Source: Tridacna crocea (lineage: Eukaryota; Mollusca; Bivalvia; Cardiida; Cardiidae). Taken from it: a stretch of DNA of 64,000 nt. The notes beneath the pieces are model-generated. The model saw only the letters and a program-made list of their open reading frames with translations, was not told the DNA's origin and made no database searches. A program made the translations under genes and the position numbers. This document shows positions 1-46,873 of the stretch, piece by piece. How positions within the stretch are numbered: position 1 is the stretch's first letter; each line of letters starts with the position of its first letter. Location of the stretch: NCBI GenBank assembly GCA_943736015.1, contig OX031069.1, positions 17,241,235-17,305,234 on the forward strand. Direction: 5' to 3'.

Positions 1-10
1 CGGCATAAAA
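1..10 (+). repeat. Last 10 bp of the preceding unit (unit 0)
   Basis: The first ten bases (CGGCATAAAA) match the end of the promoter module of every other unit. They show that the array continues to the left of the window. Confidence 0.9.
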
Positions 11-1684
11 GTGGATTTTAAGTTTTCTTTAAAGGCTGCTGTGCAGTCCTTGGCAAACTGCAAAGATTTCACTGAAAATGGGCAAACATTTAAGAAAATA
101 GGGGCGCAGAAGACCGTGTTTTGGTCTTTTCAAGCCCCTTGCAAGAATTACTTCCCTTTAACCCTCGATGCACCCACGCCCCCTCCCCAGCCCTTAACTG
201 GATTTGCTTTTCTAACTCAGCCCACAATAAATGCTGCACATTGAAACTTTCAATTAGTCAATTTTTAGTGATCAATGTACAGTGTAAAAAAACAAACAAA
301 AAAAAAAAAACGCCCAGAAATTAATGCAAGAATTACTTCCCTTTAACCCTCGATGCACCCAACACCCCCCTCCCCAGCCCTTTACTGGACTTGCTTTTCT
401 AACTCAGCCCACAATAAATGCTGCACATTAGAACTTTCAATAAGCCAAAGTGATCAATGTACAGTGTAAAAAAAAAAAAAACGCCCAGAAATTAATGCAA
501 GAATTACTTCCCTTTAACCCTCGATGTACCCAACCCCCCCTCCCCCCAGTCCTTAACTGGATTTGCTTTTCTAACTCAGCCCACAATAAATGCTGCACAT
601 TGAAACTTTCAATAAGCCAAAGTGATCAATGTACAGTGTAAAAAGAAAACGCCCAGAAATTAATGTGACAAGTGGCTAAAAAAAGATTGTAAACTCTTTC
701 AGTTGCTTCCTATTGCATAAATCAAACAAAGGCAACTGAAGTGTAATTTTTCTAATCTCTTCAAACCGCAACAAGAAACCCAGTTACGTTGACTATGTGC
801 CAGTTACGCTCATGCGAAAACCTCAGAAATTAATGCGACAAGTGGCTAAAAAAAGCCTGAAGACTCTCATATATCAAACAAAGGCAACTGAAGTGTAATT
901 TTTCCAATCTCTTCAAACCGCAACAAGAAACCCAGTTACGTCGACTACCGTCTCATAGGTGCCAGTTACGCTCATGCGAAAACCCCAGAAAATAATGCAA
1001 CAAGTGGCAAAAAAAAGACTGAAGACTCTTTCAGTAGCAACTGCTTCTTATTGCATAAATCAAACAAAAGGAACTAAATTTTTAATTTATATTTTTTTCT
1101 CCAATCTCTTTATACCGTGACCACAAATCCATTTACGTTGACTGCCATCGGATACGCGAAAACGCGAAAAATCGACTTACGGAACATTTCATAGCAGAGG
1201 ACACCTGTTGCTTAATAGGTCAAATATAGGGAATTTAGTTTCTAATATCTGTTTTTTATTTCTGCAATCTTTATTTACCGTGACGACAAACCCTTTTAGG
1301 TTGTCTATTGTCTCGCAGGTGCCACTTACGTATCCGCAAAACCATGAAAAATCGACTTATGGAATATCTTATAGCAGACGACAACTGTTGCTTGAGTCAA
1401 TTATAGGGATTTTTCTTTTTCTTTTTCTCTCACTAGGGCCATTGATTTGGTTACGATGACCATCTAACCCATACGTGACTGTTACGTGCCGCGCATAAAA
1501 TTGTAAAATCAGCTTCGACACTTTTGGAGGCAACTGAAACCTGTCGTACAAATCAAAGAAAGGTAAAGCAAATTTTTCCCTGTTTTCTTACCAGGGTCAT
1601 GAAAACATTGAACCAATTTAGACGACCGCGTGAGTCAAAAGTCAATTTTATGTTTAATCTCTGCGCAAAATATAAAATTCAGAA

Positions 1685-1696
1685 GCAACCGGTTGC
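1685..1696. other. 12-bp perfect palindrome GCAACCGGTTGC
   Basis: Present in units 1, 3, 5, 6, 7, 10, 12 and others. Replaced by GCAACCCGTTGC (for example units 2, 4, 9, 22) or GCATACGGTTGC (for example units 8, 11, 13, 15, 19-21, 23). It serves here as a haplotype marker. Confidence 0.6.
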
Positions 1697-1828
1697 TGTT
1701 GCGAAAACTTTTTCCGACAAAAAAATCTTGTTCTTGTTTGAAGAATTTAGAAGTAGGCCATAAAGACACAATAAGATGTAAGAATAACTAAAAATCAATT
1801 GCTTCCTTGATAGGGTAGAAAACATTGT

Positions 1829-1873
1829 GGGAAAAGGAGAAAATGCTGGTAGCCTGCATTGTCTCCTTTCCTC
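1829..1873 (+). other. 45-nt near-perfect hairpin upstream of the promoter module (unit 1 copy)
   Basis: Left arm 1833-1846 (AAAGGAGAAAATGC) and right arm 1856-1869 (GCATTGTCTCCTTT) match at 13 of 14 positions, with a single A/G opposition. Three further pairs outside, including one G-T, continue the stem past one mismatch. The 9-nt loop TGGTAGCCT contains GG and CC that can also pair. It lies about 65 bp before the first CCAAT box. Confidence 0.6.
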
Positions 1874-1938
1874 AGATTACTTTCAAAAGCCTTCTTTAAA
1901 AGGCGTCATGCATTGTGTGGTAAAAGGTTAATAATTAT

Positions 1939-2093
1939 CCAATCAGAGAAGCTTTAAGGAAATCAGAATGGATACCAGCAGCCAATCAGAGAAGACTTAA
2001 GAAATTCAACAGCCAATCAGAGAGCTTCAAAATCGCTCGAAATTGGCGCCAAAATTTATCAATTAAAAAACAGTGAAAAAAACGGCATAAAAG
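1939..2093 (+). promoter_or_regulatory. Cell-cycle-type promoter module: three CCAAT boxes, CHR-like, E2F palindrome, TATA-like (reference copy)
   Basis: CCAAT boxes lie at 1939-1943, 1982-1986 and 2013-2017, in the contexts ATCCAATCAGAG, AGCCAATCAGAG and AGCCAATCAGAG. TTCAAA, the reverse complement of the CHR core TTTGAA, starts at 2026. The perfect palindrome TTGGCGCCAA at 2043-2052 carries an E2F-type core and overlaps a reverse CCAAT (ATTGG, 2042-2046). CATAAAAG at 2086-2093 is TATA-like and suggests a start site near 2115-2125. From established knowledge, NF-Y binds CCAAT boxes often spaced around 31-35 bp, and NF-Y with E2F or CHR sites marks promoters that peak in S or G2/M. The strong conservation in 30 copies is also expected from array homogenisation, so function is inferred. 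Confidence 0.65.
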
Positions 2094-2113
2094 TGGATTT
2101 AAAGTTTTCTTTA

Positions 2114-2133
2114 AAGGCTGCTGTGCAGTCCTT
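2114..2133 (+). other. Small hairpin at the start of the predicted transcript
   Basis: AAGGCTGC and GCAG-T-CCTT pair around a TGT loop, with one bulged T: an 8-bp stem. In units 28-31 the sequence GTGCCGTCC replaces GTGCAGTCC, which breaks the pair next to the loop-side bulge. The short length means it could be coincidental. Confidence 0.4.
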
Positions 2134-2191
2134 GGCAAACTGCAAAGATTTCACTGAAAATGGGCAAACATTTAAGAAAATAGGGGCGCAG

Positions 2192-2210
2192 AAGACCGTG
2201 TTTTGGTCTT
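2192..2210 (+). other. Small hairpin AAGACC / GGTCTT
   Basis: A perfect 6-bp stem with a 7-nt GTGTTTT loop lies inside the predicted transcript. In beta units with GTCTTC the outermost pairs remain possible. Confidence 0.35.
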
Positions 2211-2222
2211 TTCAAGCCCCTT

Positions 2223-2407
2223 GCAAGAATTACTTCCCTTTAACCCTCGATGCACCCACGCCCCCTCCCCAGCCCTTAACTGGATTTGCTTTTCTAACTC
2301 AGCCCACAATAAATGCTGCACATTGAAACTTTCAATTAGTCAATTTTTAGTGATCAATGTACAGTGTAAAAAAACAAACAAAAAAAAAAAAACGCCCAGA
2401 AATTAAT
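2223..2407 (+). repeat. A1 monomer (reference copy, 185 bp)
   Basis: It runs from GCAAGAATTACTTCCC to the CGCCCAGAAATTAAT junction. Markers are GATGCACCCACG, CCCTTAACTGG and an extra TTAGTCAATTTTTAGTG segment absent from A2 and A3. An AATAAA sits at 2308-2313. The A-rich tail at 2368-2392 is interrupted by C. Its 5' flank has no CGCCCAG junction, so it is the monomer continuous with the upstream transcript; A2 and A3 look like tandem duplicates of this 3' end. Confidence 0.85.
2308..2313 (+). terminator. Polyadenylation signal AATAAA in A1
   Basis: Canonical hexamer in the context CACAATAAATGCTGCACA. CA dinucleotides suitable for cleavage lie 10-13 nt further on, followed by T-rich and GT-rich sequence. 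It recurs in all A monomers. Confidence 0.6.
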
Positions 2408-2578
2408 GCAAGAATTACTTCCCTTTAACCCTCGATGCACCCAACACCCCCCTCCCCAGCCCTTTACTGGACTTGCTTTTCTAACTCAGCCCACAATAAA
2501 TGCTGCACATTAGAACTTTCAATAAGCCAAAGTGATCAATGTACAGTGTAAAAAAAAAAAAAACGCCCAGAAATTAAT
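2408..2578 (+). repeat. A2 monomer (reference copy, 171 bp)
   Basis: Markers are GATGCACCCAACAC, CCCTTTACTGGACTTGC and CACATTAGAAC. AATAAA is at 2495-2500 and a 14-nt pure A tract at 2550-2563. Units 28, 30 and 31 have an A1-type monomer in this place. Confidence 0.85.
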
Positions 2579-2747
2579 GCAAGAATTACTTCCCTTTAAC
2601 CCTCGATGTACCCAACCCCCCCCTCCCCCCAGTCCTTAACTGGATTTGCTTTTCTAACTCAGCCCACAATAAATGCTGCACATTGAAACTTTCAATAAGC
2701 CAAAGTGATCAATGTACAGTGTAAAAAGAAAACGCACAGAAATTAAT
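2579..2747 (+). repeat. A3 monomer (reference copy, 169 bp)
   Basis: Markers are GATGTACCCAAC, a variable C tract and CAGTCCTTAACTGG. AATAAA is at 2668-2673. Its tail is GTGTAAAAAGAAAACGC rather than a long A tract, and it joins directly to B1. This tail looks like the ancestral state from which the A1 and A2 tracts expanded. Confidence 0.85.
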
Positions 2748-2917
2748 GTGACAAGTGGCTAAAAAAAGATTGTAAACTCTTTCAGTTGCTTCCTATTGCA
2801 TAAATCAAACAAAGGCAACTGAAGTGTAATTTTTCTAATCTCTTCAAACTGCAACAAGAAACCCAGTTACGTTGACTATGTGCCAGTTACGCTCATGCGA
2901 AAACCTCAGAAATTAAT
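2748..2917 (+). repeat. B1 monomer (170 bp)
   Basis: It begins GTGACAAGTGGCTAAAAAAAG and ends GCGAAAACCTCAGAAATTAAT. The start and end align well with B2 and B3. TTACG occurs at 2867-2871 and 2887-2891. Confidence 0.8.
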
Positions 2918-3079
2918 GCGACAAGTGGCTAAAAAAAGCCTGAAGACTCTCATATATCAAACAAAGGCAACTGAAGTGTAATTTTTCCAATCTCTTCAAA
3001 CCGCAACAAGAAACCCAGTTACGTCGACTACCGTCTCATAGGTGCCAGTTACGCTCATGCGAAAACCCCAGAAAATAAT
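2918..3079 (+). repeat. B2 monomer (162 bp)
   Basis: It begins GCGACAAGTGGC and carries the B1 motifs AAAGGCAACTGAAGTG and CAACAAGAAACCCAG. TTACG is at 3019-3023 and 3049-3053. Its first third is shorter than in B1, lacking the TTGCTTCCTATTGC stretch. Confidence 0.8.
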
Positions 3080-3255
3080 GCAACAAGTGGCAAAAAAAAG
3101 ACTGAAGACTCTTTCAGTAGCAACTGCTTCTTATTGCATAAATCAAACAAAAGGAACTAAATTTTTAATTTATACTTTTTTCTCCAATCTCTTTATACCG
3201 TGACCACAAATCCATTTACGTTGACTGCCATCGGATACGCAAAAACGCGAAAAAT
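3080..3255 (+). repeat. B3 monomer (about 176 bp)
   Basis: It begins GCAACAAGTGGC and shares TTCTTATTGCATAAATCAAA with B1. The second half is more diverged (TACCGTGACCACAAATCC). TTACG is at 3216-3220. Confidence 0.75.
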
Positions 3256-3435
3256 CGACTTACGGAACATTTCATAGCAGAGGACACCTGTTGCTTAATA
3301 GGTCAAATATAGGGAATTTAGTTTCTAATATCTGTTTTTTATTTCTGCAATCTTTATTTACCGTGACGACAAACCCTTTTAGGTTGTCTATTGTCTCGCA
3401 GGTGCCACTTACGTATCCGCAAAAACATGAAAAAT
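3256..3435 (+). repeat. B4 monomer (about 180 bp, diverged)
   Basis: It aligns to B3 through CAATCT-TTATTTACCGTGAC, GTTGTCTATTGTCTCGCAGG and the GCCACTTACG end. It begins CGACTTACGGAACAT after GCGAAAAAT. TTACG is at 3260-3264 and 3409-3413. Confidence 0.7.
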
Positions 3436-3592
3436 CGACTTATGGAATATCTTATAGCAGACGACAACTGTTGCTTGAGTCAATTATAGGGATTTTTCTT
3501 TTTCTTTTTCTCTTACTAGGGCCATTGATTTGGTTACGATGACCATCTAACCCATACGTGACTGTTACGTACCGCGCATAAAATTGTAAAAT
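3436..3592 (+). repeat. B5 monomer (about 157 bp, diverged)
   Basis: It begins CGACTTATGGAATATCTTAT, parallel to the start of B4. It holds a pyrimidine-rich run of CTTTTT repeats. TTACG is at 3534-3538 and 3565-3569. Confidence 0.65.
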
Positions 3593-3772
3593 CAGCTTCG
3601 ACACTTTTGGAGGCAACTGAAACCTGTCGTACAAATCAAAGAAAGGTAAACCAAATTTTTCCCTGTTTTCTTACCAGGGTCATGAAAACATTGAACCAAT
3701 TTAGACGACCGCATGAGTCAAAAGTCAATTTTATGTTTAATCTCTGCGCAAAATATAAAATTCAGAAGCAAC
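3593..3772 (+). repeat. B6 monomer (about 180 bp, strongly diverged)
   Basis: The boundaries rest on weak alignment of AAAATCAGC and AAAATTCAG to the starts of B4 and B5. GGCAACTGAAACCTG resembles the B1 GGCAACTGAAGTG. It contains the splice-like GTAAA...CCAG element. Confidence 0.5.
3646..3677 (+). other. Splice-like signals 32 nt apart inside B6
   Basis: AAAG/GTAAAC at 3646 resembles a 5' splice site. CCCTGTTTTCTTACCAG/GG, ending at 3677, resembles a strong 3' splice site. CCCTG and CAGGG also pair around a 9-nt loop (3661-3679). A 32-nt intron would be far shorter than normal animal introns, so this may be chance or a remnant of an older gene. Confidence 0.25.
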
Positions 3773-3911
3773 CCGTTGCTGTTGCGAAAACTTTTTCCGA
3801 CAAAAAAATCTTGTTCTTGTTTGAAGAATTTAGAAGTAGGCCATAAAGACACAATAAGATGTAAGAATAACTAAAAATCAATTGCTTCCTTGATCGGGTA
3901 GAAAACATTGT
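3773..3911 (+). repeat. Decayed end of the B array, no recognisable element
   Basis: It begins with AGAAGCAACCCGTTGC, a polymorphic palindrome site, then AT-rich sequence to CATTGTG. I see no gene or clear monomer here. Confidence 0.5.
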
Positions 3912-3956
3912 GGGAAAAGGAGAAAATGCTGGTAGCCTGCATTGTCTCCTTTCCTC
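3912..3956 (+). other. 45-nt hairpin, reference unit copy
   Basis: Same structure as the copy at 1829-1873, with unchanged arms and loop. A second, smaller inverted repeat GCCTT/AAGGC follows at 3972-3987. Confidence 0.6.
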
Positions 3957-4021
3957 AGATTACTTTCAAAAGCCTTCTTTAAAAGGCGTCATGCATTGTG
4001 TGGTAAAAGGTTAATAATTAT

Positions 4022-4176
4022 CCAATCAGAGAAGCTTTAAGGAAATCAGAATGGATACCAGCAGCCAATCAGAGAAGACTTAAGAAATTCAACAGCCAAT
4101 CAGAGAGCTTCAAAATCGCTCGAAATTGGCGCCAAAATTTATCAATTAAAAAACAGTGAAAAAAACGGCATAAAAG
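4022..4176 (+). promoter_or_regulatory. Promoter module upstream of unit 3
   Basis: CCAAT at 4022, 4065 and 4096; TTCAAA at 4109-4114; E2F palindrome 4126-4135; CATAAAAG 4169-4176. All elements intact. Confidence 0.6.
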
Positions 4177-4446
4177 TGGATTTAAAGTTTTCTTTAAAGG
4201 CTGCTGTGCAGTCCTTGGCAAACTGCAAAGATTTCACTGAAAATGGGCAAACATTTAAGAAAATAGGGGCGCAGAAGACCGTGTTTTGGTCTTTTCAAGC
4301 CCCTTGCAAGAATTACTTCCCTTTAACCCTCGATACACCCACGCCCCCTCCCCAGCCCTTAACTGGATTTGCTTTTCTAACTCAGCCCACAATAAATGCT
4401 GCACATTGAAACTTTCAATTAGTCAATTTTTAGTGATCAATGTACA

Positions 4447-4478
<32 letters not shown>

Positions 4479-6260
4479 CGCCCAGAAATTAATGCAAGAA
4501 TTACTTCCCTTTAACCCTCGATGCACCCAACACCCCCCTCCCCAGCCCTTTACTGGACTTGCTTTTCTAACTCAGCCCACAATAAATGCTGCACATTAGA
4601 ACTTTCAATAAGCCAAAGTGATCAATGTACAGTGTAAAAAAAAAAAAAACGCCCAGAAATTAATGCAAGAATTACTTCCCTTTAACCCTCGATGTGCCCA
4701 ACCCCCCCTCCCCCCAGTCCTTAACTGGATTTGCTTTTCTAACTCAGCCCACAATAAATGCTGCACATTGAAACTTTCAATAAGCCAAAGTGATCAATGT
4801 ACAGTGTAAAAAGAAAACGCCCAGAAATTAATGTGACAAGTGGCTAAAAAAAGATTGTAAACTCTTTCAGTTGCTTCCTATTGCATAAATCAAACAAAGG
4901 CAACTGAAGTGTAATTTTTCTAATCTCTTCAAACCGCAACAAGAAACCCAGTTACGTTGACTATGTGCCAGTTACGCTCATGCGAAAACCTCAGAAATTA
5001 ATGCGACAAGTGGCTAAAAAAAGCCTGAAGACTCTCATATATCAAACAAAGGCAACTGAAGTGTAATTTTTCCAATCTCTTCAAACCGCAACAAGAAACC
5101 CAGTTACGTCGACTACCGTCTCATAGGTGCCAGTTACGCTCATGCGAAAACCCCAGAAAATAATGCAACAAGTGGCAAAAAAAAGACTGAAGACTCTTTC
5201 AGAAGCAACTGCTTCTTATTGCATAAATCAAACAAAAGGAACTAAATTTTTAATTTATACTTTTTTCTCCAATCTCTTTATACCGTGACCACAAATCCAT
5301 TTACGTTGACTGCCATCGGATACGCGAAAACGTGAAAAATCGACTTACGGAACATTTCATAGCAGAGGACACCTGTTGCTTAATAGGTCAAATATAGGGA
5401 ATTTAGTTTCTAATATCTGTTTTTTATTTCTGCAATCTTTATTTACCGTGACGACAAACCCTTTTAGGTTGTCTATTGTCTCGCAGGTGCCACTTACGTA
5501 TCCGCAAAAACATGAAAAATCGACTTATGGAATATCTTATAGCAGACGACAACTGTTGCTTGAGTCAATTATAGGGATTTTTCTTTTTCTTTTTCTCTCA
5601 CTAGGGCCATTGATTTGGTTACGATGACCATCTAACCCATACGTGACTGTTACGTACCGCGCATAAAATTGTAAAATCAGCTTCGACACTTTTGGAGGCA
5701 ACTGAAACCTGTCGTACAAATCAAAGAAAGGTAAACCAAATTTTTCCCTGTTTTCTTACCAGGGTCATGAAAACATTGAACCAATTTAGACGACCGCGAG
5801 AGTCAAAAGTCAATTTTATGTTTAATCTCTGCGCAAAATATAAAATTCAGAAGCAACCGGTTGCTGTTGCGAAAACTTTTTCCGACAAAAAAATCTTGTT
5901 CTTGTTTGAAGAATTTAGAAGTAGGCCATAAAGACACAATAAGATGTAAGAATAACTAAAAATCAATTGCTTCCTTGATCGGGTAGAAAACATTGTGGGA
6001 AAAGGAGAAAATGCTGGTAGCCTGCATTGTCTCCTTTCCTCAGATTACTTTCAAAAGCCTTCTTTAAAAGGCGTCATGCATTGTGTGGTAAAAGGTTAAT
6101 AATTATCCAATCAGAGAAGCTTTAAGGAAATCAGAATGGATACCAGCAGCCAATCAGAGAAGACTTAAGAAATTCAACAGCCAATCAGAGAGCTTCAAAA
6201 TCGCTCGAAATTGGCGCCAAAATTTATCAATTAAAAAACAGTGAAAAAAACGGCATAAAA
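4176..6260 (+). repeat. Array unit 3 (2085 bp)
   Basis: The A1 tail is an uninterrupted run of 28 A (4451-4478). Private changes are CGATACACCC in A1, CGATGTGCCC in A3, TTCAGAAGCAACTGC in B3 and CCGCGAGAGTC in B6. It carries the GCAACCGGTTGC palindrome. Confidence 0.95.
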
Positions 6261-6261
6261 G
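6107..6261 (+). promoter_or_regulatory. Promoter module upstream of unit 4
   Basis: CCAAT at 6107, 6150 and 6181; E2F palindrome 6211-6220; CATAAAAG 6254-6261. Intact. Confidence 0.6.
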
Positions 6262-8343
6262 TGGATTTAAAGTTTTCTTTAAAGGCTGCTGTGCAGTCCT
6301 TGGCAAACTGCAAAGATTTCACTGAAAATGGGCAAACATTTAAGAAAATAGGGGCGCAGAAGACCGTGTTTTGGTCTTTTCAAGCCCCTTGCAAGAATTA
6401 CTTCCCTTTAACCCTCGATGCACCCACGCCCCCTCCCCAGCCCTTAACTGGATTTGCTTTTCTAACTCAGCCCACAATAAATGCTGCACATTGAAACTTT
6501 CAATTAGTCAATTTTTAGTGATCAATGTACAGTGTAAAAAAACAAACAAAAAAAAAAAAACGCCCAGAAATTAATGCAAGAATTACTTCCCTTTAACCCT
6601 CGATGCACCCAACACCCCCCTCCCCAGCCCTTTACTGGACTTGCTTTTCTAACTCAGCCCACAATAAATGCTGCACATTAGAACTTTCAATAAGCCAAAG
6701 TGATCAATGTACAGTGTAAAAAAAAAAAAAACGCCCAGAAATTAATGCAAGAATTACTTCCCTTTAACCCTCGATGTACCCAACCCCCCCCTCCCCCCAG
6801 TCCTTAACTGGATTTGCTTTTCTAACTCAGCCCACAATAAATGCTGCACATTGAAACTTTCAATAAGCCAAAGTGATCAATGTACAGTGTAAAAAGAAAA
6901 CGCACAGAAATTAATGTGACAAGTGGCTAAAAAAAGATTGTAAACTCTTTCAGTTGCTTCCTATTGCATAAATCAAACAAAGGCAACTGAAGTGTAATTT
7001 TTCTAATCTCTTCAAACTGCAACAAGAAACCCAGTTACGTTGACTATGTGCCAGTTACGCTCATGCGAAAACCTCAGAAATTAATGCGACAAGTGGCTAA
7101 AAAAAGCCTGAAGACTCTCATATATCAAACAAAGGCAACTGAAGTGTAATTTTTCCAATCTCTTCAAACCGCAACAAGAAACCCAGTTACGTCGACTACC
7201 GTCTCATAGGTGCCAGTTACGCTCATGCGAAAACCCCAGAAAATAATGCAACAAGTGGCAAAAAAAAGACTGAAGACTCTTTCAGTAGCAACTGCTTCTT
7301 ATTGCATAAATCAAACAAAAGGAACTAAATTTTTAATTTATACTTTTTTCTCCAATCTCTTTATACCGTGACCACAAATCCATTTACGTTGACTGCCATC
7401 GGATACGCAAAAACGCGAAAAATCGACTTACGGAACATTTCATAGCAGAGGACACCTGTTGCTTAATAGGTCAAATATAGGGAATTTAGTTTCTAATATC
7501 TGTTTTTTATTTCTGCAATCTTTATTTACCGTGACGACAAACCCTTTTAGGTTGTCTATTGTCTCGCAGGTGCCACTTACGTATCCGCAAAAACATGAAA
7601 AATCGACTTATGGAATATCTTATAGCAGACGACAACTGTTGCTTGAGTCAATTATAGGGATTTTTCTTTTTCTTTTTCTCTTACTAGGGCCATTGATTTG
7701 GTTACGATGACCATCTAACCCATACGTGACTGTTACGTACCGCGCATAAAATTGTAAAATCAGCTTCGACACTTTTGGAGGCAACTGAAACCTGTCGTAC
7801 AAATCAAAGAAAGGTAAACCAAATTTTTCCCTGTTTTCTTACCAGGGTCATGAAAACATTGAACCAATTTAGACGACCGCGTGAGTCAAAAGTCAATTTT
7901 ATGTTTAATCTCTGCGCAAAATATAAAATTCAGAAGCAACCCGTTGCTGTTGCGAAAACTTTTTCCGACAAAAAAATCTTGTTCTTGTTTGAAGAATTTA
8001 GAAGTAGGCCATAAAGACACAATAAGATGTAAGAATAACTAAAAATCAATTGCTTCCTTGATCGGGTAGAAAACATTGTGGGAAAAGGAGAAAATGCTGG
8101 TAGCCTGCATTGTCTCCTTTCCTCAGATTACTTTCAAAAGCCTTCTTTAAAAGGCGTCATGCATTGTGTGGTAAAAGGTTAATAATTATCCAATCAGAGA
8201 AGCTTTAAGGAAATCAGAATGGATACCAGCAGCCAATCAGAGAAGACTTAAGAAATTCAACAGCCAATCAGAGAGCTTCAAAATCGCTCGAAATTGGCGC
8301 CAAAATTTATCAATTAAAAAACAGTGAAAAAAACGGCATAAAA
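6261..8343 (+). repeat. Array unit 4 (2083 bp), near-duplicate of unit 2
   Basis: It shares with unit 2 the CGCACAG junction, CAAACTGC, ACGCAAAAACGCG, CTCTTACTAGG, GTTACGTACC and CAACCCGTTGC. It differs in CCGCGTGAGTC (CCGCATGAGTC in unit 2). A shared haplotype 4168 bp away points to exchange at a two-unit register. Confidence 0.95.
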
Positions 8344-8344
8344 G
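8190..8344 (+). promoter_or_regulatory. Promoter module upstream of unit 5
   Basis: CCAAT at 8190, 8233 and 8264; E2F palindrome 8294-8303; CATAAAAG 8337-8344. Intact. Confidence 0.6.
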
Positions 8345-10427
8345 TGGATTTAAAGTTTTCTTTAAAGGCTGCTGTGCAGTCCTTGGCAAACTGCAAAGAT
8401 TTCACTGAAAATGGGCAAACATTTAAGAAAATAGGGGCGCAGAAGACCGTGTTTTGGTCTTTTCAAGCCCCTTGCAAGAATTACTTCCCTTTAACCCTCG
8501 ATGCACCCACGCCCCCTCCCCAGCCCTTAACTGGATTTGCTTTTCTAACTCAGCCCATAATAAATGCTGCACATTGAAACTTTCAATTAGTCAATTTTTA
8601 GTGATCAATGTACAGTGTAAAAAAAAAAACAAAAAAAAAAAAACGCCCAGAAATTAATGCAAGAATTACTTCCCTTTAACCCTCGATGCAACCAACACCC
8701 CCCTCCCCAGCCCTTTACTGGACTTGCTTTTCTAACTCAGCCCACAATAAATGCTGCACATTAGAACTTTCAATAAGCCAAAGTGATCAATGTACAGTGT
8801 AAAAAAAAAAAAACGCCCAGAAATTAATGCAAGAATTACTTCCCTTTAACCCTCGATGTACCCACCCCCCCCCCTCCCCCCAGTCCTTAACTGGATTTGC
8901 TTTTCTAACTCAGCCCACAATAAATGCTGCACATTGAAACTTTCAATAAGCCAAAGTGATCAATGTACAGTGTAAAAAGAAAACGCCCAGAAATTAATGT
9001 GACAAGTGGCTAAAAAAAGATTGTAAACTCTTTCAGTTGCTTCCTATTGCATAAATCAAACAAAGGCAACTGAAGTGTAATTTTTCTAATCTCTTCAAAC
9101 TGCAACAAGAAACCCAGTTACGTTGACTATGTGCCAGTTACGCTCATGCGAAAACCTCAGAAATTAATGCGACAAGTGGCTAAAAAAAGCCTGAAGACTC
9201 TCATATATCAAACAAAGGCAACTGAAGTGTAATTTTTCCAATCTCTTCAAACCGCAACAAGAAACCCAGTTACGTCGACTACCGTCTCATAGGTGCCAGT
9301 TACGCTCATGCGAAAACCCCAGAAAATAATGCAACAAGTGGCAAAAAAAAAGACTGAAGACTCTTTCAGTAGCAACTGCTCCTTATTGCATAAATCAAAC
9401 AAAAGGAACTAAATTTTTAATTTATATTTTTTTCTCCAATCTCTTTATACCGTGACCACAAATCCATTTACGTTGACTGCCATCGGATACGCGAAAACGC
9501 GAAAAATCGACTTACGGAACATTTCATAGCAGAGGACACCTGTTGCTTAATAGGTCAAATATAGGGAATTTAGTTTCTAATATCTGTTTTTTATTTCTGC
9601 AATCTTTATTTACCGTGACGACAAACCCTTTTAGGTTGTCTATTGTCTCGCAGGTGCCACTTACGTATCCGCAAAAACATGAAAAATCGACTTATGGAAT
9701 ATCTTATAGCAGACGACAACTGTTGCTTGAGTCAATTATAGGGATTTTTCTTTTTCTTTTTCTCTCACTAGGGCCATTGATTTGGTTACGATGACCATCT
9801 AACCCATACGTGACTGTTACGTGCCGCGCATAAAATTGTAAAATCAGCTTCGACACTTTTGGAGGCAACTGAAACCTGTCGTACAAATCAAAGAAAGGTA
9901 AACCAAATTTTTCCCTGTTTTCTTACCAGGGTCATGAAAACATTGAACCAATTTAGACGACCGCGTGAGTCAAAAGTCAATTTTATGTTTAATCTCTGCG
10001 CAAAATATAAAATTCAGAAGCAACCGGTTGCTGTTGCGAAAACTTTTTCCGACAAAAAAATCTTGTTCTTGTTTGAAGAATTTAGAAGTAGGCCATAAAG
10101 ACACAATAAGATGTAAGAATAACTAAAAATCAATTGCTTCCTTGATCGGGTAGAAAACATTGTGGGAAAAGGAGAAAATGCTGGTAGCCTGCATTGTCTC
10201 CTTTCCTCAGATTACTTTCAAAAGCCTTCTTTAAAAGGCGTCATGCATTGTGTGGTAAAAGGTTAATAATTATCCAATCAGAGAAGCTTTAAGGAAATCA
10301 GAATGGATAGCAGCAGCCAATCAGAGAAGACTTAAGAAATTCAACAGCCAATCAGAGAGCTTCAAAATCGCTCGAAATTGGCGCCAAAATTTATCAATTA
10401 AAAAACAGTGAAAAAAACGGCATAAAA
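8344..10427 (+). repeat. Array unit 5 (2084 bp)
   Basis: Private variants: the A1 polyadenylation region reads CCCATAATAAATG, A2 has GCAACCAACACC, A3 has a longer C tract after GTACCCA, B3 has ACTGCTCCTTATTG, and GATAGCAGC lies between the first and second CCAAT boxes. Confidence 0.95.
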
Positions 10428-10428
10428 G
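10274..10428 (+). promoter_or_regulatory. Promoter module upstream of unit 6
   Basis: CCAAT at 10274, 10317 and 10348; E2F palindrome 10378-10387; CATAAAAG 10421-10428. A private GATAGCAGC sits just upstream of the second CCAAT box, where other copies have GATACCAGC. Confidence 0.6.
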
Positions 10429-10698
10429 TGGATTTAAAGTTTTCTTTAAAGGCTGCTGTGCAGTCCTTGGCAAACTGCAAAGATTTCACTGAAAATGGGC
10501 AAACATTTAAGAAAATAGGGGCGCAGAAGACCGTGTTTTGGTCTTTTCAAGCCCCTTGCAAGAATTACTTCCCTTTAACCCTCGATGCACCCACGCCCCC
10601 TCCTCAGCCCTTAACTGGATTTGCTTTTCTAACTCAGCCCACAATAAATGCTGCACATTGAAACTTTCAATTAGTCAATTTTTAGTGATCAATGTACA

Positions 10699-10734
<36 letters not shown>

Positions 10735-12518
10735 GCCCAGAAATTAATGCAAGAATTACTTCCCTTTAACCCTCGATGCACCCAACACCCCCCTCCCCAG
10801 CCCTTTACTGGACTTGCTTTTCTAACTCAGCCCACAATAAATGCTGCACATTAGAACTTTCAATAAGCCAAAGTGATCAATGTACAGTGTAAAAAAAAAA
10901 AAAAACGCCCAGAAATTAATGCAAGAATTACTTCCCTTTAACCCTCGATGTACCCAACCCCCCCCCTCCCCCCAGTCCTTAACTGGATTTGCTTTTCTAA
11001 CTCAGCCCACAATAAATGCTGCACATTGAAACTTTCAATAAGCCAAAGTGATCAATGTACAGTGTAAAAAGAAAACGCCCAGAAATTAATGTGACAAGTG
11101 GCTAAAAAAAGATTGTAAACTCTTTCAGTTGCTTCCTATTGCATAAATCAAACAAAGGCAACTGAAGTGTAATTTTTCTAATCTCTTCAAACTGCAACAA
11201 GAAACCCAGTTACGTTGACTATGTGCCAGTTACGCTCATGCGAAAACCTCAGAAATTAATGCGACAAGTGGCTAAAAAAAGCCTGAAGACTCTCATATAT
11301 CAAACAAAGGCAACTGAAGTGTAATTTTTCCAATCTCTTCAAACCGCAACAAGAAACCCAGTTACGTCGACTACCGTCTCATAGGTGCCAGTTACGCTCA
11401 TGCGAAAACCCCAGAAAATAATGCAACAAGTGGCAAAAAAAAGACTGAAGACTCTTTCAGTAGCAACTGCTTCTTATTGCATAAATCAAACAAAAGGAAC
11501 TAAATTTTTAATTTATATTTTTTTCTCCAATCTCTTTATACCGTGACCACAAATCCATTTACGTTGACTGCCATCGGATACGCGAAAACGCGAAAAATCG
11601 ACTTACGGAACATTTCATAGCAGAGGACACCTGTTGCTTAATAGGTCAAATATAGGGAATTTAGTTTCTAATATCTGTTTTTTATTTCTGCAATCTTTAT
11701 TTACCGTGACGACAAACCCTTTTAGGTTGTCTATTGTCTCACAGGTGCCACTTACGTATCCGCAAAAACATGAAAAATCGACTTATGGAATATCTTATAG
11801 CAGACGACAACTGTTGCTTGAGTCAATTATAGGGATTTTTCTTTTTCTTTTTCTCTCACTAGGGCCATTGATTTGGTTACGATGACCATCTAACCCATAC
11901 GGGACTGTTACGTGCCGCGCATAAAATTGTAAAATCAGCTTCGACACTTTTGGAGGCAACTGAAACCTGTCGTACAAATCAAAGAAAGGTAAACCAAATT
12001 TTTCCCTGTTTTCTTACCAGGGTCATGAAAACATTGAACCAATTTAGACGACCGCGTGAGTCAAAAGTCAATTTTATGTTTAATCTCTGCGCAAAATATA
12101 AAATTCAGAAGCAACCGGTTGCTGTTGCGAAAACTTTTTCCGACAAAAAAATCTTGTTCTTGTTTGAAGAATTTAGAAGTAGGCCATAAAGACACAATAA
12201 GATGTAAGAATAACTAAAAATCAATTGCTTCCTTGATAGGGTAGAAAACATTGTGGGAAAAGGAGAAAATGCTGGTAGCCTGCATTGTCTCCTTTTCTCA
12301 GATTACTTTCAAAAGCCTTCTTTAAAAGGCGTCATGCATTGTGTGGTAAAAGGTTAATAATTATCCAATCAGAGAAGCTTTAAGGAAATCAGAATGGATA
12401 CCAGCAGCCAATCAGAGAAGACTTAAGAAATTCAACAGCCAATCAGAGAGCTTCAAAATCGCTCGAAATTGGCGCCAAAATTTATCAATTAAAAAACAGT
12501 GAAAAAAACGGCATAAAA
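10428..12518 (+). repeat. Array unit 6 (2091 bp)
   Basis: It is slightly long because the A1 tail is an uninterrupted run of 31 A (10703-10733), the longest pure A run in the window by my count. Other private changes are CTCCTCAGCCC in A1, GTCTCACAGG in B4, ATACGGGACTG in B5 and CCTTTTCTCAG beside the conserved hairpin. Confidence 0.95.
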
Positions 12519-12519
12519 G
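12365..12519 (+). promoter_or_regulatory. Promoter module upstream of unit 7
   Basis: CCAAT at 12365, 12408 and 12439; E2F palindrome 12469-12478; CATAAAAG 12512-12519. Intact. Confidence 0.6.
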
Positions 12520-14956
12520 TGGATTTAAAGTTTTCTTTAAAGGCTGCTGTGCAGTCCTTGGCAAACTGCAAAGATTTCACTGAAAATGGGCAAACATTTA
12601 AGAAAGTAGGGGCGCAGAAGACCGTGTTTTGGTCTTTTCAAGCCCCTTGCAAGAATTACTTCCCTTTAACCCTCGATGCACCCACGCCCCCTCCCCAGCC
12701 CTTAACTGGATTTGCTTTTCTAACTCAGCCCACAATAAATGCTGCACATTGAAACTTTCAATTACTCAATTTTTAGTGATCAATGTACAGTGTAAAAAAA
12801 AAAACACAAAAAAAAAAAAACGCCCAGAAATTAATGCAAGAATTACTTCCCTTTAACCCTCGATGCACCCAACACCCCCCTCCCCAGCCCTTTACTGGAC
12901 TTGCTTTTCTAACTCAGCCCACAATAAATGCTGCACATTAGAACTTTCAATAAGCCAAAGTGATCAATGTACAGTGTAAAAAAAAAAAAAACGCCCAGAA
13001 ATTAATGCAAGAATTACTTCCCTTTATCCCTCGATGCACCCACGCCCCCTCCCTAGCCCTTAACTGGATTTGCTTTTCTAACTCAGCCCACAATAAATGC
13101 TGCACATTGAAACTTTCAATTAGTCAATTTTTAGTCATCAATGTACAGTGTAAAAAAAAAAACAAACACAAAAAAACGCCCAGAAATTAATGCAAGAATT
13201 ACTTCCCTTTAACCCTCGATGCACCCAACACCCCCCTCCCCAGCCCTTTACTGGACTTGCTTTTCTAACTCAGCCCACAATAAATGCTGCACATTAGAAC
13301 TTTCAATAAGCCAAAGTGATCAATGTACAGTGTAAAAAAAAAAAACGCCCAGAAATTAATGCAAGAATTACTTCCCTTTAACCCTAGATGTACCCAATCC
13401 CCCCTCCCCCCAGTCCTTAACTGAATTTGCTTTTCTAACTCAGCCCACAATAAATGCTGCACATTGAAACTTTCAATAAGCCAAAGTGATCAATGTACAG
13501 TGTAAAAAGAAAACGCCCAGAAATTAATGTGACAAGTGGCTAAAAAAAGATTGTAAACTCTTTCAGTTTCTTCCTATTGCATAAATCAAACAAAGGCAAC
13601 TGAAGTGTAATTTTTCTAATCTCTTCAAACCACAACAAGAAACCCAGTTACGTTGACTATGTGCCAGTTACGCTCATGCGAAAACCTCAGAAATTAATGC
13701 GACAAGTGGCTAAAAAAAGCCTGAAGACTCTCATATATCAAACAAAGGCAACTGAAGTGTAATTTTTCCAATCTCTTCAAACCGCAACAAGAAACCCAGT
13801 TACGTTGACTACCGTCTCATAGGTGCCAGTTACGCTCATGCGAAAACCCCAGAAAATAATGCAACAAGTGGCAAAAAAAAGACTGAAGACTCTTTCAGTA
13901 GCAACTGCTTCTTATTGCATAAATCAAACAAAAGGAACTAAATTTTTAATTTATATTTTTTTCTCCAATCTCTTTATACCGTGACCACAAATCCATTTAC
14001 GTTGACTGCCATCGTATCCGCAAAAACGTGAAAAATCGACTTACGGAACATTTCATAGCAGAGGACACCTGTTGCTTAATAGGTCAAATATAGGGAATTT
14101 AGTTTCTAATATCTGTTTTTTATTTCTGCAATCTTTATTTACCGTGACGACAAACCCTTTTAGGTTGTCTATTGTCTCGCAGGTGCCACTTACGTATCCG
14201 CAAAAACATGAAAAATCGACTTATGGAATATCTTATAGCAGACGACAACTGTTGCTTGAGTCAATTATAGGGATTTTTCTTTTTCTTTTTCTCTCACTAG
14301 GGCCATTGATTTGGTTACGATGACCATCTAACCCATACGTGACTGTTACGTGCCGCGCATAAAATTGTAAAATCAGCTTCGACACTTTTGGAGGCAACTG
14401 AAACCTGTCGTACAAATCAAAGAAAGGTAAACCAAATTTTTCCCTGTTTTCTTACCAGGGTCATGAAAACATTGAACCAATTTAGACGACCGCGTGAGTC
14501 AAAAGTCAATTTTATGTTTAATCTCTGCGCAAAATATAAAATTCAGAAGCAACCGGTTGCTGTTGCGAAAACTTTTTCCGACAAAAAAATCTTGTTCTTG
14601 TTTGAAGAATTTAGGAGTAGGCCATAAAGACACAATAAGATGTAAGAATAACTAAAAATCAATTACTTCCTTGATAGGGTAGAAAACATTGTGGGAAAAG
14701 GAGAAAATGCTGGTAGCCTGCATTGTCTCCTTTCCTCAGATTACTTTCAAAAGCCTTCTTTAAAAGGCGTCATGCATTGTGTGGTAAAAGGTTAATAATT
14801 ATCCAATCAGAGAAGCTTTAAGGAAATCAGAATGGATACCAGCAGCCAATCAGAGAAGACTTAAGAAATTCAACAGCCAATCAGAGAGCTTCAAAATCGC
14901 TCGAAATTGGCGCCAAAATTTATCAATTAAAAAACAGTGAAAAAAACGGCATAAAA
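12519..14956 (+). repeat. Array unit 7 (2438 bp), hybrid with five A monomers
   Basis: The unit is longer than its neighbours by about two monomers. The A block reads A1(alpha)-A2-A1(beta)-A2-A3. The second A1 has the beta markers TTTATCCCTC, CCCTAGCCC and TTAGTCATC, and the following A3 has CCTAGATGTACCCAATC. B1 has TTCAGTTTCTTCC and CAAACCACAAC. The layout fits an unequal exchange between an alpha and a beta unit. It begins the first copy of the three-unit block. Confidence 0.95.
12649..13528 (+). repeat. Expanded A block of unit 7 (five monomers)
   Basis: Monomers start at 12649 (A1 alpha), 12836 (A2), 13007 (A1 beta), 13192 (A2) and 13361 (A3). The beta A1 has no upstream transcript start of its own; it follows an A2 junction. 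The A block is about 350 bp longer than in ordinary units. Confidence 0.9.
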
Positions 14957-14957
14957 G
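14803..14957 (+). promoter_or_regulatory. Promoter module upstream of unit 8
   Basis: CCAAT at 14803, 14846 and 14877; E2F palindrome 14907-14916; CATAAAAG 14950-14957. Intact. Confidence 0.6.
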
Positions 14958-15227
14958 TGGATTTAAAGTTTTCTTTAAAGGCTGCTGTGCAGTCCTTGGC
15001 AAACTGCAAAGATTTCACTGAAAATGGGCAAACATTTAAGAAAATAGGGGCGCAGAAGACCGTGTTTTGGTCTTTTCAAGCCCCTTGCAAGAATTACTTC
15101 CCTTTAACCCTCGATGCACCCACGCCCCCTCCCCAGCCCTTAACTGGATTTGCTTTTCTAACTCGGCCCACAATAAATGCTGCACATTGAAACTTTCAAT
15201 TAGTCAATTTTTAGTCATCAATGTACA

Positions 15228-15258
<31 letters not shown>

Positions 15259-17041
15259 CCGCACAGAAATTAATGCAAGAATTACTTCCCTTTAACCCTC
15301 GATGCACCCAACACCCCCCTCCCCAGCCCTTTACTGGACTTGCTTTTCTAACTCAGCCCACAATAAATGCTGCACATTAGAACTTTCAATAAGCCAAAGT
15401 GATCAATGTACAGTGTAAAAAAAAAAAAACGCCCAGAAATTAATGCAAGAATTACTTCCCTTTAACCCTCGATGTACCAAACCCCCCCCTCCCCCCAGTC
15501 CTTAACTGGATTTGCTTTTCTAACTCAGCCCACAATAAATGCTGCACATTGAAACTTTCAATAAGCCAAAGTGATCAATGTACAGTGTAAAAAGAAAACG
15601 CCCAGAAATTAATGTGACAAGTGGCTAAAAAAAGATTGTAAACTCTTTCAGTTGCTTCCTATTGCATAAATCAAACAAAGGCAACTGAAGTGTAATTTTT
15701 CTAATCTCTTCAAACCGCAACAAGAAACCCAGTTACGTTGACTATGTGCCAGTTACGCTCATGCGAAAACCTCAGAAATTAATGCGACAAGTGGCTAAAA
15801 AAAGCCTGAAGACTCTCATATATCGAACAAAGGCAACTGAAGTGTAATTTTTCCAATCTCTTCAAACCGCAACAAGAAACCCAGTTACGTCGACTACCGT
15901 CTCATAGGTGCCAGTTACGCTCATGCGAAAACCCCAGAAAATAATGCAACAAGTGGCAAAAAAAAGACTGAAGACTCTTTCAGTAGCAACTGCTTCTTAT
16001 TGCATAAATCAAACAAAAGGAACTAAATTTTTAATTTATATTTTTTTCTCCAATCTCTTTATACCGTGACCACAAATCCATTTACGTTGACTGCCATCGG
16101 ATACGCGAAAACGCGAAAAATCGACTTACGGAACATTTCATAGCAGAGGACACCTGTTGCTTAATAGGTCAAATATAGGGAATTTAGTTTCTAATATCTG
16201 TTTTTTATTTCTGCAATCTTTATTTACCGTGACGACAAACCCTTTTAGGTTGTCTATTGTCTCGCAGGTGCCACTTACGTATCCGCAAAAACATGAAAAA
16301 TCGACTTATGGAATATCTTATAGCAGACGACAACTGTTGCTTGAGTCAATTATAGGGATTTTTCTTTTTCTTTTTCTCTCACTAGGGCCATTGATTTGGT
16401 TACGATGACCATCTAACCCATACGTGACTGTTACGTGCCGCGCATAAAATTGTAAAATCAGCTTCGACACTTTTGGAGGCAACTGAAACCTGTCGTACAA
16501 ATCAAAGAAAGGTAAACCAAATTTTTCCCTGTTTTCTTACCAGGGTCATGAAAACATTGAACCAATTTAGACGACCGCGTGAGTCAAAAGTCAATTTTAT
16601 GTTTAATCTCTGCGCAAAATATAAAATTCAGAAGCATACGGTTGCTGTTGCGAAAACTTTTTCCGACAAAAAAATCTTGTTCTTGTTTGAAGAATTTAGA
16701 AGTAGGCCATAAAGACACAATAAGATGTAAGAATAACTAAAAATCAATTGCTTCCTTGATAGGGTAGAAAACATTGTGGGAAAAGGAGAAAATGCTGGTA
16801 GCCTGCATTGTCTCCTTTCCTCAGATTACTTTCAAAAGCCTTCTTTAAAAGGCGTCATGCATTGTGTGGTAAAAGGTTAATAATTATCCAATCAGAGAAG
16901 CTTTAAGGAAATCAGAATGGATACCAGCAGCCAATCAGAGAAGACTTAAGAAATTCAACAGCCAATCAGAGAGCTTCAAAATCGCTCGAAATTGGCGCCA
17001 AAATTTATCAATTAAAAAACAGTGAAAAAAACGGCATAAAA
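14957..17041 (+). repeat. Array unit 8 (2085 bp)
   Basis: Diagnostic variants shared only with unit 11 are CTCGGCCCAC beside the A1 polyadenylation signal and TATCGAACAAAG in B2. The B6 end reads GCATACGGTTGC. The A1/A2 junction reads CCGCACAG. Confidence 0.95.
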
Positions 17042-17042
17042 G
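16888..17042 (+). promoter_or_regulatory. Promoter module upstream of unit 9
   Basis: CCAAT at 16888, 16931 and 16962; E2F palindrome 16992-17001; CATAAAAG 17035-17042. Intact. Confidence 0.6.
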
Positions 17043-19125
17043 TGGATTTAAAGTTTTCTTTAAAGGCTGCTGTGCAGTCCTTGGCAAACTGCAAAGATTT
17101 CACTGAAAATGGGCAAACATTTAAGAAAATAGGGGCGCAGAAGACCGTGTTTTGGTCTTCTCAAGCCCCTTGCAAGAATTACTTCCCTTTATCCCTCGAT
17201 GCACCCACGCCCCCTCCCCAGCCCTTAACTGGATTTGCTTTTCTAACTCAGCCCACAATAAATGCTGCACATTGAAACTTTCAATTAGTCAATTTTTAGT
17301 CATCAATGTACAGTGTAAAAAGAAAACACAAAAAAAAAAAAACGCCCAGAAATTAATGCAAGAATTACTTCCCTTTAACCCTCGATGCACCCAACACCCC
17401 CCTCCCCAGCCCTTTACTGGACTTGCTTTTCTAACTCAGCCCACAATAAATGCTGCACATTAGAACTTTCAATAAGCCAAAGTGATCAATGTACAGTGTA
17501 AAAAAAAAAAAAACGCCCAGAAATTAATGCAAGAATTACTTCCCTTTAACCCTCGATGTACCCAACCCCCCCCTCCTCCCAGTCCTTAACTGGATTTGCT
17601 TTTCTAACTCAGCCCACAATAAATGCTGCACATTGAAACTTTCAATAAGCCAAAGTGATCAATGTACAGTGTAAAAAGAAAACGCCCAGAAATTAATGTG
17701 ACAAGTGGCTAAAAAAAGATTGTAAACTCTTTCAGTTGCTTCCTATTGCATAAATCAAACAAAGGCAACTGAAGTGTAATTTTTCTAATCTCTTCAAACC
17801 GCAACAAGAAACCCAGTTACGTTGACTATGTGCCAGTTACGCTCATGCGAAAACCTCAGAAATTAATGCGACAAGTGGCTAAAAAAAGCCTGAAGACTCT
17901 CATATATCAAACAAAGGCAACTGAAGTGTAATTTTTCCAATCTCTTCAAACCGCAACAAGAAACCCAGTTACGTCGACTACCGTCTCATAGGTGCCAGTT
18001 ACGCTCATGCGAAAACCCCAGAAAATAATGCAACAAGTGGCAAAAAAAAGACTGAAGACTCTTTCAGTAGCAACTGCTTCTTATTGCATAAATCAAACAA
18101 AAGGAACTAAATTTTTAATTTATATTTTTTTCTCCAATCTCTTTATACCGTGACCACAAATCCATTTACGTTGACTGCCATCGGATACGCGAAAACGCGA
18201 AAAATCGACTTACGGAACATTTCATAGCAGAGGACACCTGTTGCTTAATAGGTCAAATATAGGGAATTTAGTTTCTAATATCTGTTTTTTATTTCTGCAA
18301 TCTTTATTTACCGTGACGACAAACCCTTTTAGGTTGTCTATTGTCTCGCAGGTGCCACTTACGTATCCGCAAAAACATGAAAAATCGACTTATGGAATAT
18401 CTTATAGCAGACGACAACTGTTGCTTGAGTCAATTATAGGGATTTTTCTTTTTCTTTTTCTCTCACTAGGGCCATTGATTTGGTTACGATGACCATCTAA
18501 CCCATACGTGACTGTTACGTGCCGCGCATAAAATTGTAAAATCAGCTTCGACACTTTTGGAGGCAACTGAAACCTGTCGTACAAATCAAAGAAAGGTAAA
18601 CCAAATTTTTCCCTGTTTTCTTACCAGGGTCATGAAAACATTGAACCAATTTAGACGACCGCGTGAGTCAAAAGTCAATTTTATGTTTAATCTCTGCGCA
18701 AAATATAAAATTCAGAAGCAACCCGTTGCTGTTGCGAAAACTTTTTCCGACAAAAAAATCTTGTTCTTGTTTGAAGAATTTAGAAGTAGGCCATAAAGAC
18801 ACAATAAGATGTAAGAATAACTAAAAATCAATTGCTTCCTTGATAGGGTAGAAAACATTGTGGGAAAAGGAGAAAATGCTGGTAGCCTGCATTGTCTCCT
18901 TTCCTCAGATTACTTTCAAAAGCCTTCTTTAAAAGGCGTCATGCATTGTGTGGTAAAAGGTTAATAATTATCCAATCAGAGAAGCTTTAAGGAAATCAGA
19001 ATGGATACCAGCAGCCAATCAGAGAAGACTTAAGAAATTCAACAGCCAATCAGAGAGCTTCAAAATCGCTCGAAATTGGCGCCAAAATTTATCAATTAAA
19101 AAACAGTGAAAAAAACGGCATAAAA
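17042..19125 (+). repeat. Array unit 9 (2084 bp)
   Basis: Beta-like A1: GTCTTCTCAAG, TTTATCCCTC and TTAGTCATC, but CCCCAGCCC rather than CCCTAGCCC. The A1 tail is interrupted by G and C. A3 has CCCTCCTCCCAG. It is the third unit of the first three-unit block and corresponds to unit 12. Confidence 0.95.
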
Positions 19126-19126
19126 G
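18972..19126 (+). promoter_or_regulatory. Promoter module upstream of unit 10
   Basis: CCAAT at 18972, 19015 and 19046; E2F palindrome 19076-19085; CATAAAAG 19119-19126. Intact. Confidence 0.6.
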
Positions 19127-21562: not shown

Positions 21563-21563
21563 G
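21409..21563 (+). promoter_or_regulatory. Promoter module upstream of unit 11
   Basis: CCAAT at 21409, 21452 and 21483; E2F palindrome 21513-21522; CATAAAAG 21556-21563. Intact. Confidence 0.6.
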
Positions 21564-23649: not shown

Positions 23650-23650
23650 G
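23496..23650 (+). promoter_or_regulatory. Promoter module upstream of unit 12
   Basis: CCAAT at 23496, 23539 and 23570; E2F palindrome 23600-23609; CATAAAAG 23643-23650. Intact. Confidence 0.6.
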
Positions 23651-25735: not shown

Positions 25736-25736
25736 G
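25582..25736 (+). promoter_or_regulatory. Promoter module upstream of unit 13
   Basis: CCAAT at 25582, 25625 and 25656; E2F palindrome 25686-25695; CATAAAAG 25729-25736. Intact. Confidence 0.6.
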
Positions 25737-27820: not shown

Positions 27821-27821
27821 G
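27667..27821 (+). promoter_or_regulatory. Promoter module upstream of unit 14
   Basis: CCAAT at 27667, 27710 and 27741; E2F palindrome 27771-27780; CATAAAAG 27814-27821. Intact. Confidence 0.6.
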
Positions 27822-29900: not shown

Positions 29901-29901
29901 G
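29747..29901 (+). promoter_or_regulatory. Promoter module upstream of unit 15
   Basis: CCAAT at 29747, 29790 and 29821; E2F palindrome 29851-29860; CATAAAAG 29894-29901. Intact. Confidence 0.6.
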
Positions 29902-31986: not shown

Positions 31987-31987
31987 G
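31833..31987 (+). promoter_or_regulatory. Promoter module upstream of unit 16
   Basis: CCAAT at 31833, 31876 and 31907; E2F palindrome 31937-31946; CATAAAAG 31980-31987. Intact. Confidence 0.6.
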
Positions 31988-34070: not shown

Positions 34071-34071
34071 G
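33917..34071 (+). promoter_or_regulatory. Promoter module upstream of unit 17
   Basis: CCAAT at 33917, 33960 and 33991; E2F palindrome 34021-34030; CATAAAAG 34064-34071. Intact. Confidence 0.6.
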
Positions 34072-36151: not shown

Positions 36152-36152
36152 G
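35998..36152 (+). promoter_or_regulatory. Promoter module upstream of unit 18
   Basis: CCAAT at 35998, 36041 and 36072; E2F palindrome 36102-36111; CATAAAAG 36145-36152. Intact. Confidence 0.6.
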
Positions 36153-38236: not shown

Positions 38237-38237
38237 G
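38083..38237 (+). promoter_or_regulatory. Promoter module upstream of unit 19
   Basis: CCAAT at 38083, 38126 and 38157; E2F palindrome 38187-38196; CATAAAAG 38230-38237. Intact. Confidence 0.6.
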
Positions 38238-40321: not shown

Positions 40322-40322
40322 G
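40168..40322 (+). promoter_or_regulatory. Promoter module upstream of unit 20
   Basis: CCAAT at 40168, 40211 and 40242; E2F palindrome 40272-40281; CATAAAAG 40315-40322. Intact. Confidence 0.6.

Positions 40323-46842: not shown

Positions 46843-46873
<31 letters not shown>

Follow-up and report, generated by a model that had tools for sequence, protein, structure and literature searches.

The window analysed here is a stretch of 64,000 nucleotides (C14:17241235-17305234) in a 1.05-Gb genome of 31 contigs, that of Tridacna crocea, and it is filled by a tandem array in which the same cluster of promoter-like motifs comes back unit after unit. The question that this locus raises is whether the units carry a genuine promoter and, if so, of what kind. 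The initial annotation had proposed an NF-Y/E2F promoter of the cell-cycle type in every unit, based on three CCAAT boxes spaced 43 and 31 bp apart, a CHR-like TTCAAA, a palindrome lying over a reverse CCAAT and a TATA-like box, all of which are present and at the expected places (Table 1). Our analysis makes the NF-Y/TATA part of this reading plausible, and extends it from one array to a whole family of related repeats, whereas the E2F/CHR part is not supported.

The claim that every unit carries the block holds nearly everywhere, with few exceptions. Promoters were located by their TATA anchor and were scored for the full set of motifs, that is, three CCAAT boxes at the 43/31 spacing, the palindrome, ATTGG and TTCAAA. 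The full set, and with it the NF-Y-type arrangement (several CCAAT boxes, each at a set distance from a TATA box downstream), was found in 29/30 promoters of the window, 85/85 of the left part of the array (C14:16702500-16902499) and 3/4 of locus L050. When the promoters were located by the context of CCAAT box 3, a TATA anchor was found in 30/30, 85/86 and 4/4 cases, respectively, one left-part promoter being without it. Near its right edge, the array has a unit of greater divergence (L053) in which all three CCAAT boxes are kept along with the palindrome and TATA box, and the block differs at three other places; such retention would not be surprising by chance alone.

Chance expectations for the motifs come from shuffling one unit 2,000 times by dinucleotides. 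At least three CCAATCA arose in 10/2,000 shuffles, the ten-base palindrome TTGGCGCCAA in 5/2,000, and four or more CCAAT (either strand, within 155 bp) in 79/2,000. Neither TTCAAA/TTYGAA (5 seen vs. a shuffle mean of 6.5; 1,584/2,000 shuffles) nor a looser E2F consensus (reached by 456/2,000 shuffles) was enriched. It is important to note that not every CCAAT box counts as an independent one, because blocks 1 and 2 are alike outside the decamer as well (13/5,000 single-base shuffles as good) and look like duplicates of each other; blocks 2-3 and 1-3 show no clear likeness (566 and 519 of 5,000 shuffles as good, respectively).

Table 1. Features of the promoter-like block and of the unit around it (window coordinates).
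Feature	Position	Strand	Basis or remark
CCAAT box 1, CCAATCAGAG	1939..1948	+	motif search
CCAAT box 2, CCAATCAGAG	1982..1991	+	motif search
CCAAT box 3, CCAATCAGAG	2013..2022	+	motif search; exact CCAAT pairs 15,599 genome-wide
TTCAAA, CHR-like hexamer	2026..2031		not above chance
TTGGCGCCAA palindrome, E2F-like, overlapping reverse CCAAT (ATTGG) at 2042-2046	2043..2052		in 30/30 window promoters; absent from some related arrays
TATA block, containing CATAAAAG at 2086-2093	2077..2108	+	commonest of the four blocks counted
Leader block, predicted RNA start about 25-30 nt past the TATA box	2116..2147	+	putative start site
Nested hairpin in leader (GGGGC...AGACC...GGTCT...GCCCC)	2183..2220	+	folding
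Tandem sub-repeats of graded divergence (unit positions 139-1470)	2222..3553	+	self-comparison of the unit
Dispersed fold-back (MITE-like) repeat, same element at 1808-1932	3890..4014		just upstream of the promoter in every unit
Tandem array, part	1..64000	+	31 TATA anchors, 30 units

The array in which the block is repeated is a macrosatellite, i.e., a long tandem array of kilobase units, with more such arrays elsewhere in the genome (below). It covers about 0.62 Mb in units of ~2.08 kb, from an abrupt left edge in mid-unit at C14:16724077 to somewhere between 17341000 and 17350000 (array sequence of 95-97% identity is present at C14:17340000-17341000 and absent at 17350000), and its length corresponds to an estimated ~300 units. 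The left edge was placed from matches >60 bp within the first 60 kb (minus short, weak matches past 25 kb) and from matches >40 bp. Unit lengths in the window are 2,071-2,100 bp in 28/30 cases; the remaining two units, of 2,437 and 2,438 bp (window ~12510-14948 and 19117-21554), contain ~354 bp extra in the form of two additional sub-repeats, pointing to unequal exchange in this part of the unit. One unit of the left part measures 2,294 bp and contains a stretch without match to the reference unit.

Read from a copy starting at 2084, the unit consists of the TATA box and a leader of ~130 bp, the sub-repeats, a tail, a 125-bp fold-back repeat and the CCAAT block. The sub-repeats start at unit positions 139, 324, 495, 666 and 837 (lengths of 185, 171, 171 and 171 bp); the first three are 86-91% alike and the next three 74-78%, and the whole stretch is ~70% alike when shifted by one repeat. 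Each of the first three contains an AATAAA (2308, 2495 and 2668), and these are candidate poly(A) signals, although their position within sub-repeats of duplication origin counts against reading them as ending signals. The leader (2115-2232) folds only slightly better than its shuffles (z = -1.87; 8/200 shuffles fold as well). As for the fold-back repeat (~90-125 bp), it is very dense on C14, with matches >100 bp in 8/17 samples of 2.5 kb taken outside the array (at most three matches per locus reported, >100 bp only) and some match, on both strands, in 12/17 samples by a sensitive search; the loci are L009-L013, L015-L017, L021-L023 and L028, plus the left flank of the array. Six ORFs were searched against Pfam with nothing over the cut-off (a somatostatin match with E 0.29 was weak, fell below the cut-off and was rejected), and Rfam gave no family at the gathering threshold (five weak matches, E 0.28-2, all far below the gathering scores).

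The promoter-like core is found far beyond this array. Four 32-base blocks from the C14 array (window positions 2033-2064 and 2077-2108 among them, the latter being the TATA block) were searched genome-wide with up to 3 mismatches, and the resulting counts measure likeness to the C14 array. The TATA block has 19,315 copies (10,297 plus and 9,018 minus strand), the leader block with the predicted RNA start 14,685 (8,674 and 6,011), an upstream control block 8,375 (5,502 and 2,873), and the E2F block 1,843 (901 and 942). By a different, mismatch-free measure, there are 15,599 CCAATCAGAG pairs at about the C14-array spacing (8,495 plus and 7,104 minus), exact over 20 bases. All reversed-pattern controls gave 0. 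These counts are whole, and the array places that follow are those among the matches listed. All 100 CCAAT-pair places among the matches listed are at C1:24.84-24.94 Mb, on the minus strand and with a period of ~1,666 bp. Further arrays, again among the matches listed, are at C14:10.75-10.96, C7:13.33-13.49 and 15.25-15.27, C1:33.05-33.16, C3:25.19-25.27, C2:11.65-11.85 and C5:13.62-13.81 Mb. That is, at least six contigs (C1, C2, C3, C5, C7 and C14) have related arrays; single places on C6 and C8, and isolated matches away from long arrays (C14:6.23 Mb, C14:5.64 Mb, C2:55.39 Mb and those on C6 and C8), are also among the matches listed. In the C2:11.65-11.85 Mb array the TATA block is letter-perfect at 85 places among the matches listed. 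These other arrays are known by pattern matches, the letters seen being the matched strings of the CCAAT-pair and C14:10.75-10.96 Mb searches. Their periods differ (C1, ~1,666 and 2,090 bp; C2, ~2,036; C3, 1,653-1,677; C5, ~1,920; C7, ~2,090 and 2,104; C14, ~2,080-2,090), and C1, C7 and C14 have more than one array each, those on C1 and C7 in both orientations.

Since the genome-wide counts differ in this way between blocks, the CCAAT/TATA core looks like a feature of the family and the E2F-like site like an array-specific one. The counts also fall roughly with CpG content (TATA 1, leader 0, control 3 and E2F 3 CpG per block), and hence CpG decay could by itself make the ranking; because the blocks differ in CpG and one non-promoter control was counted, selection on the core is suggested, not shown. 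If each of the 19,315 TATA blocks is in a full unit of 1.65-2.1 kb, the satellite family may represent ~3-4% of the genome. No description of such a family was found in the literature searched, among the matches listed.

Inside the C14 array, a comparison of substitutions within the motifs with those in the rest of the unit, which the initial annotation had offered as a refuting test, gave no signal of constraint, the array being too homogeneous to show one. In an alignment of 111 normal-length units (28/30 from the window and 83/84 from the left part, units outside 2,060-2,110 bp being excluded), the 155 columns that lead up to the TATA anchor include 8 variable ones, and as few or fewer are seen in 513/1,926 sliding windows of 155 columns (337/1,930 for the window units and 1,782/1,926 for the left units). 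That is, variability in the promoter is no lower than elsewhere in the unit. The mean minor-base fraction is 0.0002 in the 83 left-hand units vs. 0.0053 in the 28 window units, as if amplification had been more recent on the left.

The cell-cycle part of the proposed promoter fares less well than its CCAAT/TATA part. CCAATCAGAG followed within 10-35 bp by the half-site GCGCCAAA occurs at 4,934 exact places (2,950 plus and 1,984 minus) vs. the 19,315 TATA blocks, the latter counted with up to 3 mismatches. CCAAT followed by the full palindrome and CATAAAA occurs at 391 places (314 plus and 77 minus), on C7 and C14 among the matches listed. The C14 array has at least 119 TATA-anchored promoters with the palindrome (30+85+4, a tally in which CCAAT box 3 is not required), and most of the other plus-strand places with palindrome and CATAAAA are probably there as well. 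The C14:10.75-10.96 Mb array is absent from this latter list among the matches listed, the ordered list extending past its position. Similarly, the half-site follows 0 of the 48 exact 41-bp CCAAT2-CCAAT3 pairs listed at C1:24.84-24.94 Mb, because the CCAAT-plus-half-site list, which is in contig order, begins at C1:33.05 Mb. On C2, this search gave one place among the matches listed, at 55.39 Mb; the C2:11.65 Mb array may lack an exact CCAAT box 3 as well as the E2F-like site, two situations between which the search cannot distinguish. It is also true that 4,934 exceeds the 1,843 E2F blocks, and thus the half-site has been kept in at least 3,000 copies with diverged 32-base surroundings and may be in use in some arrays. 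A fair statement, from these matches, is that the E2F-like site appears array-specific, retained in part of the family and missing from at least one related array. As to the CHR-like hexamer, it is at chance level (above) and lies upstream (2026) of the E2F-like site (2043), whereas in cell-cycle promoters the CDE precedes the CHR, with a 4-nt spacing.

That NF-Y and E2F/DREAM would together control an S-phase- or G2/M-linked transcription of the satellite is, on this evidence, very unlikely, even if the palindrome, above chance and in all window promoters, and the persistence of the half-site in diverged surroundings speak for it, as does the human cyclin B2 promoter, whose main sites are reported to be three CCAAT boxes and a CHR (cited in PMC3641139). 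The CCAAT/CHR promoters of cyclin B2 and KIF23 are like the block studied here in having several CCAAT boxes, one pair of them 31 bp apart, and are unlike it in that the CHR of the C14 array is not above chance and the E2F-like site is missing in some related arrays. Instead, we tentatively favor the hypothesis that the C14 array belongs to a family of promoter-bearing macrosatellites spread over the genome, in which each unit has a single core promoter of the RNA polymerase II type (NF-Y-type CCAAT boxes plus a TATA box) that reads into the unit. Under this hypothesis, NF-Y would bind the CCAAT boxes, the TATA box would direct initiation to about 2113-2120, and the likely product would be a short non-coding RNA with its predicted end at the AATAAA of the first sub-repeats, ~200-600 nt on; the E2F-like palindrome and TTCAAA would be either peculiar to some arrays or a matter of chance, and dispensable for the persistence of the family. 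Because the unit is modular (a unique promoter/leader module, central repeats of ~170 bp and a unique tail), its architecture suggests that the ancestor was perhaps a non-autonomous mobile element of a bivalve type. Alternatively, the promoter may be the relic of a gene or mobile element that was carried along by satellite amplification and homogenisation and serves no purposeful transcription, the counts then reflecting low CpG and recent spread. The ordinary variability of the promoter inside the C14 array is consistent with this alternative, and so are the rough agreement of the CpG ranking with the counts and the near identity of the 83 left-hand units, a sign of recent homogenisation; however, CCAAT pairs exact over 20 bases 15,599 times, and TATA and leader blocks about twofold over the single control, argue against it, and we consider it possible but somewhat unlikely. 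A bolder version of the favored hypothesis, which would apply if most TATA blocks are in full units and which we regard as rather unlikely, is that a non-coding RNA gene transcribed by Pol II is present in nearly twenty thousand tandem copies on many chromosomes, in an rDNA-like layout, with the core promoter and 5' leader under selection and the spacers turning over in each array, i.e., a large and as yet undescribed family of multicopy RNA genes or a satellite that persists via its own transcription.

Other origins for the TATA/leader part were also considered. A TATA-assisted RNA polymerase III unit with a tRNA- or SINE-like head would agree with the TATA box near -30 and with the poly(A)-like runs past the leader, but is exceedingly improbable given that no match to the A-box or B-box consensus was found in the 300 bp that start at the TATA anchor, that a tRNA search of the window found none, and that CCAAT boxes are typical mainly of Pol II promoters. 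(A primer-binding site was also entertained on account of TGGCGCC, which we take to be the letters of the tRNA-Lys site, and was dropped, the likeness ending there by eye.) It is further conceivable, albeit unlikely, that the TATA/leader part is the terminal or subterminal module of a non-autonomous element (a Pearl/HINE-like Helentron) that was kept for mobility, the likeness to a promoter being incidental. Bivalve elements of this kind, Pearl and Cg_HINE, are reported to have central repeats of 140-180 bp, arranged in tandem and bordered by unique sequence (PMC7492417), and the C14 unit is built likewise, with its repeats of 185, 171, 171 and 171 bp between unique modules; one 13-nt inverted pair (I9) flanks these central repeats, and the isolated pattern matches off the long arrays, among the matches listed, would also be in line with such an element. 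However, I9 is one of 21 such pairs and may be there by chance, subterminal inverted repeats or a 3' palindrome were not established in the unit, and neither an element end nor a target site nor a Helentron terminus was identified. Further, hundreds of head-to-tail units are the behaviour of a satellite; the C14 units differ from Pearl and Cg_HINE in forming long homogenised arrays with a prominent CCAAT/TATA block, although whole elements of that superfamily are reported to be tandem at times as well (PMC7492417). The biv-TRIM elements of bivalves, compared by architecture only, are also small, form tandem arrays and are reported to make up <1% of each genome (PMC6934838), but in the C14 unit we recognised no inner domain bounded by paired terminal direct repeats.

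Promoter-bearing macrosatellites such as D4Z4 would be the closest working analogue. The mammalian macrosatellites D4Z4 and SST1/NBL2 are also tandem arrays with units of at least one kilobase; their units can be transcribed, each has a promoter, and the arrays are confined to a few loci. Transcription from the D4Z4 array is reported (PMC3334996). Here, by contrast, there are 19,315 TATA blocks and arrays on at least six contigs, and the C14 family, which has no known ORF, is known from sequence alone. A second comparison is offered by the multi-copy histone cluster of the same genome (C13:7.05-7.47 Mb), where an H3 gene (L054) shows the same CCAAT-then-TATA grammar as the C14 array, with CAGCCAATCA upstream, the TATA box CGCATAAATAG 30 bp on, and the GGCCCTTTTAAGGGCC stem-loop after the ORF (2 exact matches in L054). 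However, only the 10-bp CCAAT core aligns between the two (21/500 shuffles as good). A derivation of the promoter from replication-dependent histone genes was rejected based on this 10-bp match, on the stem-loop, which has 0 occurrences in the window even with 3 mismatches, and on the six ORFs without a Pfam match over the cut-off.

If the promoter is live, the satellite family would represent a vast set of near-identical transcription units, and one could ask of it directly whether transcription is the reason why satellites spread or persist. With a dead promoter, the family would still illustrate well how promoter sequence can be taken along when a satellite amplifies, and would caution against the regulatory reading of motif clusters in repeats.

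Finally, the contig that carries COX1 (C31; L029, C31:25016-29009) measures 29,009 bp, which is large for an animal mitochondrial genome. COX1 on this contig reads by the invertebrate mitochondrial code, and the sequence upstream of it is ND1-like by eye. Unusually large mitochondrial genomes are reported for scallops (PMC8915466) and ark shells (PMC9727918).
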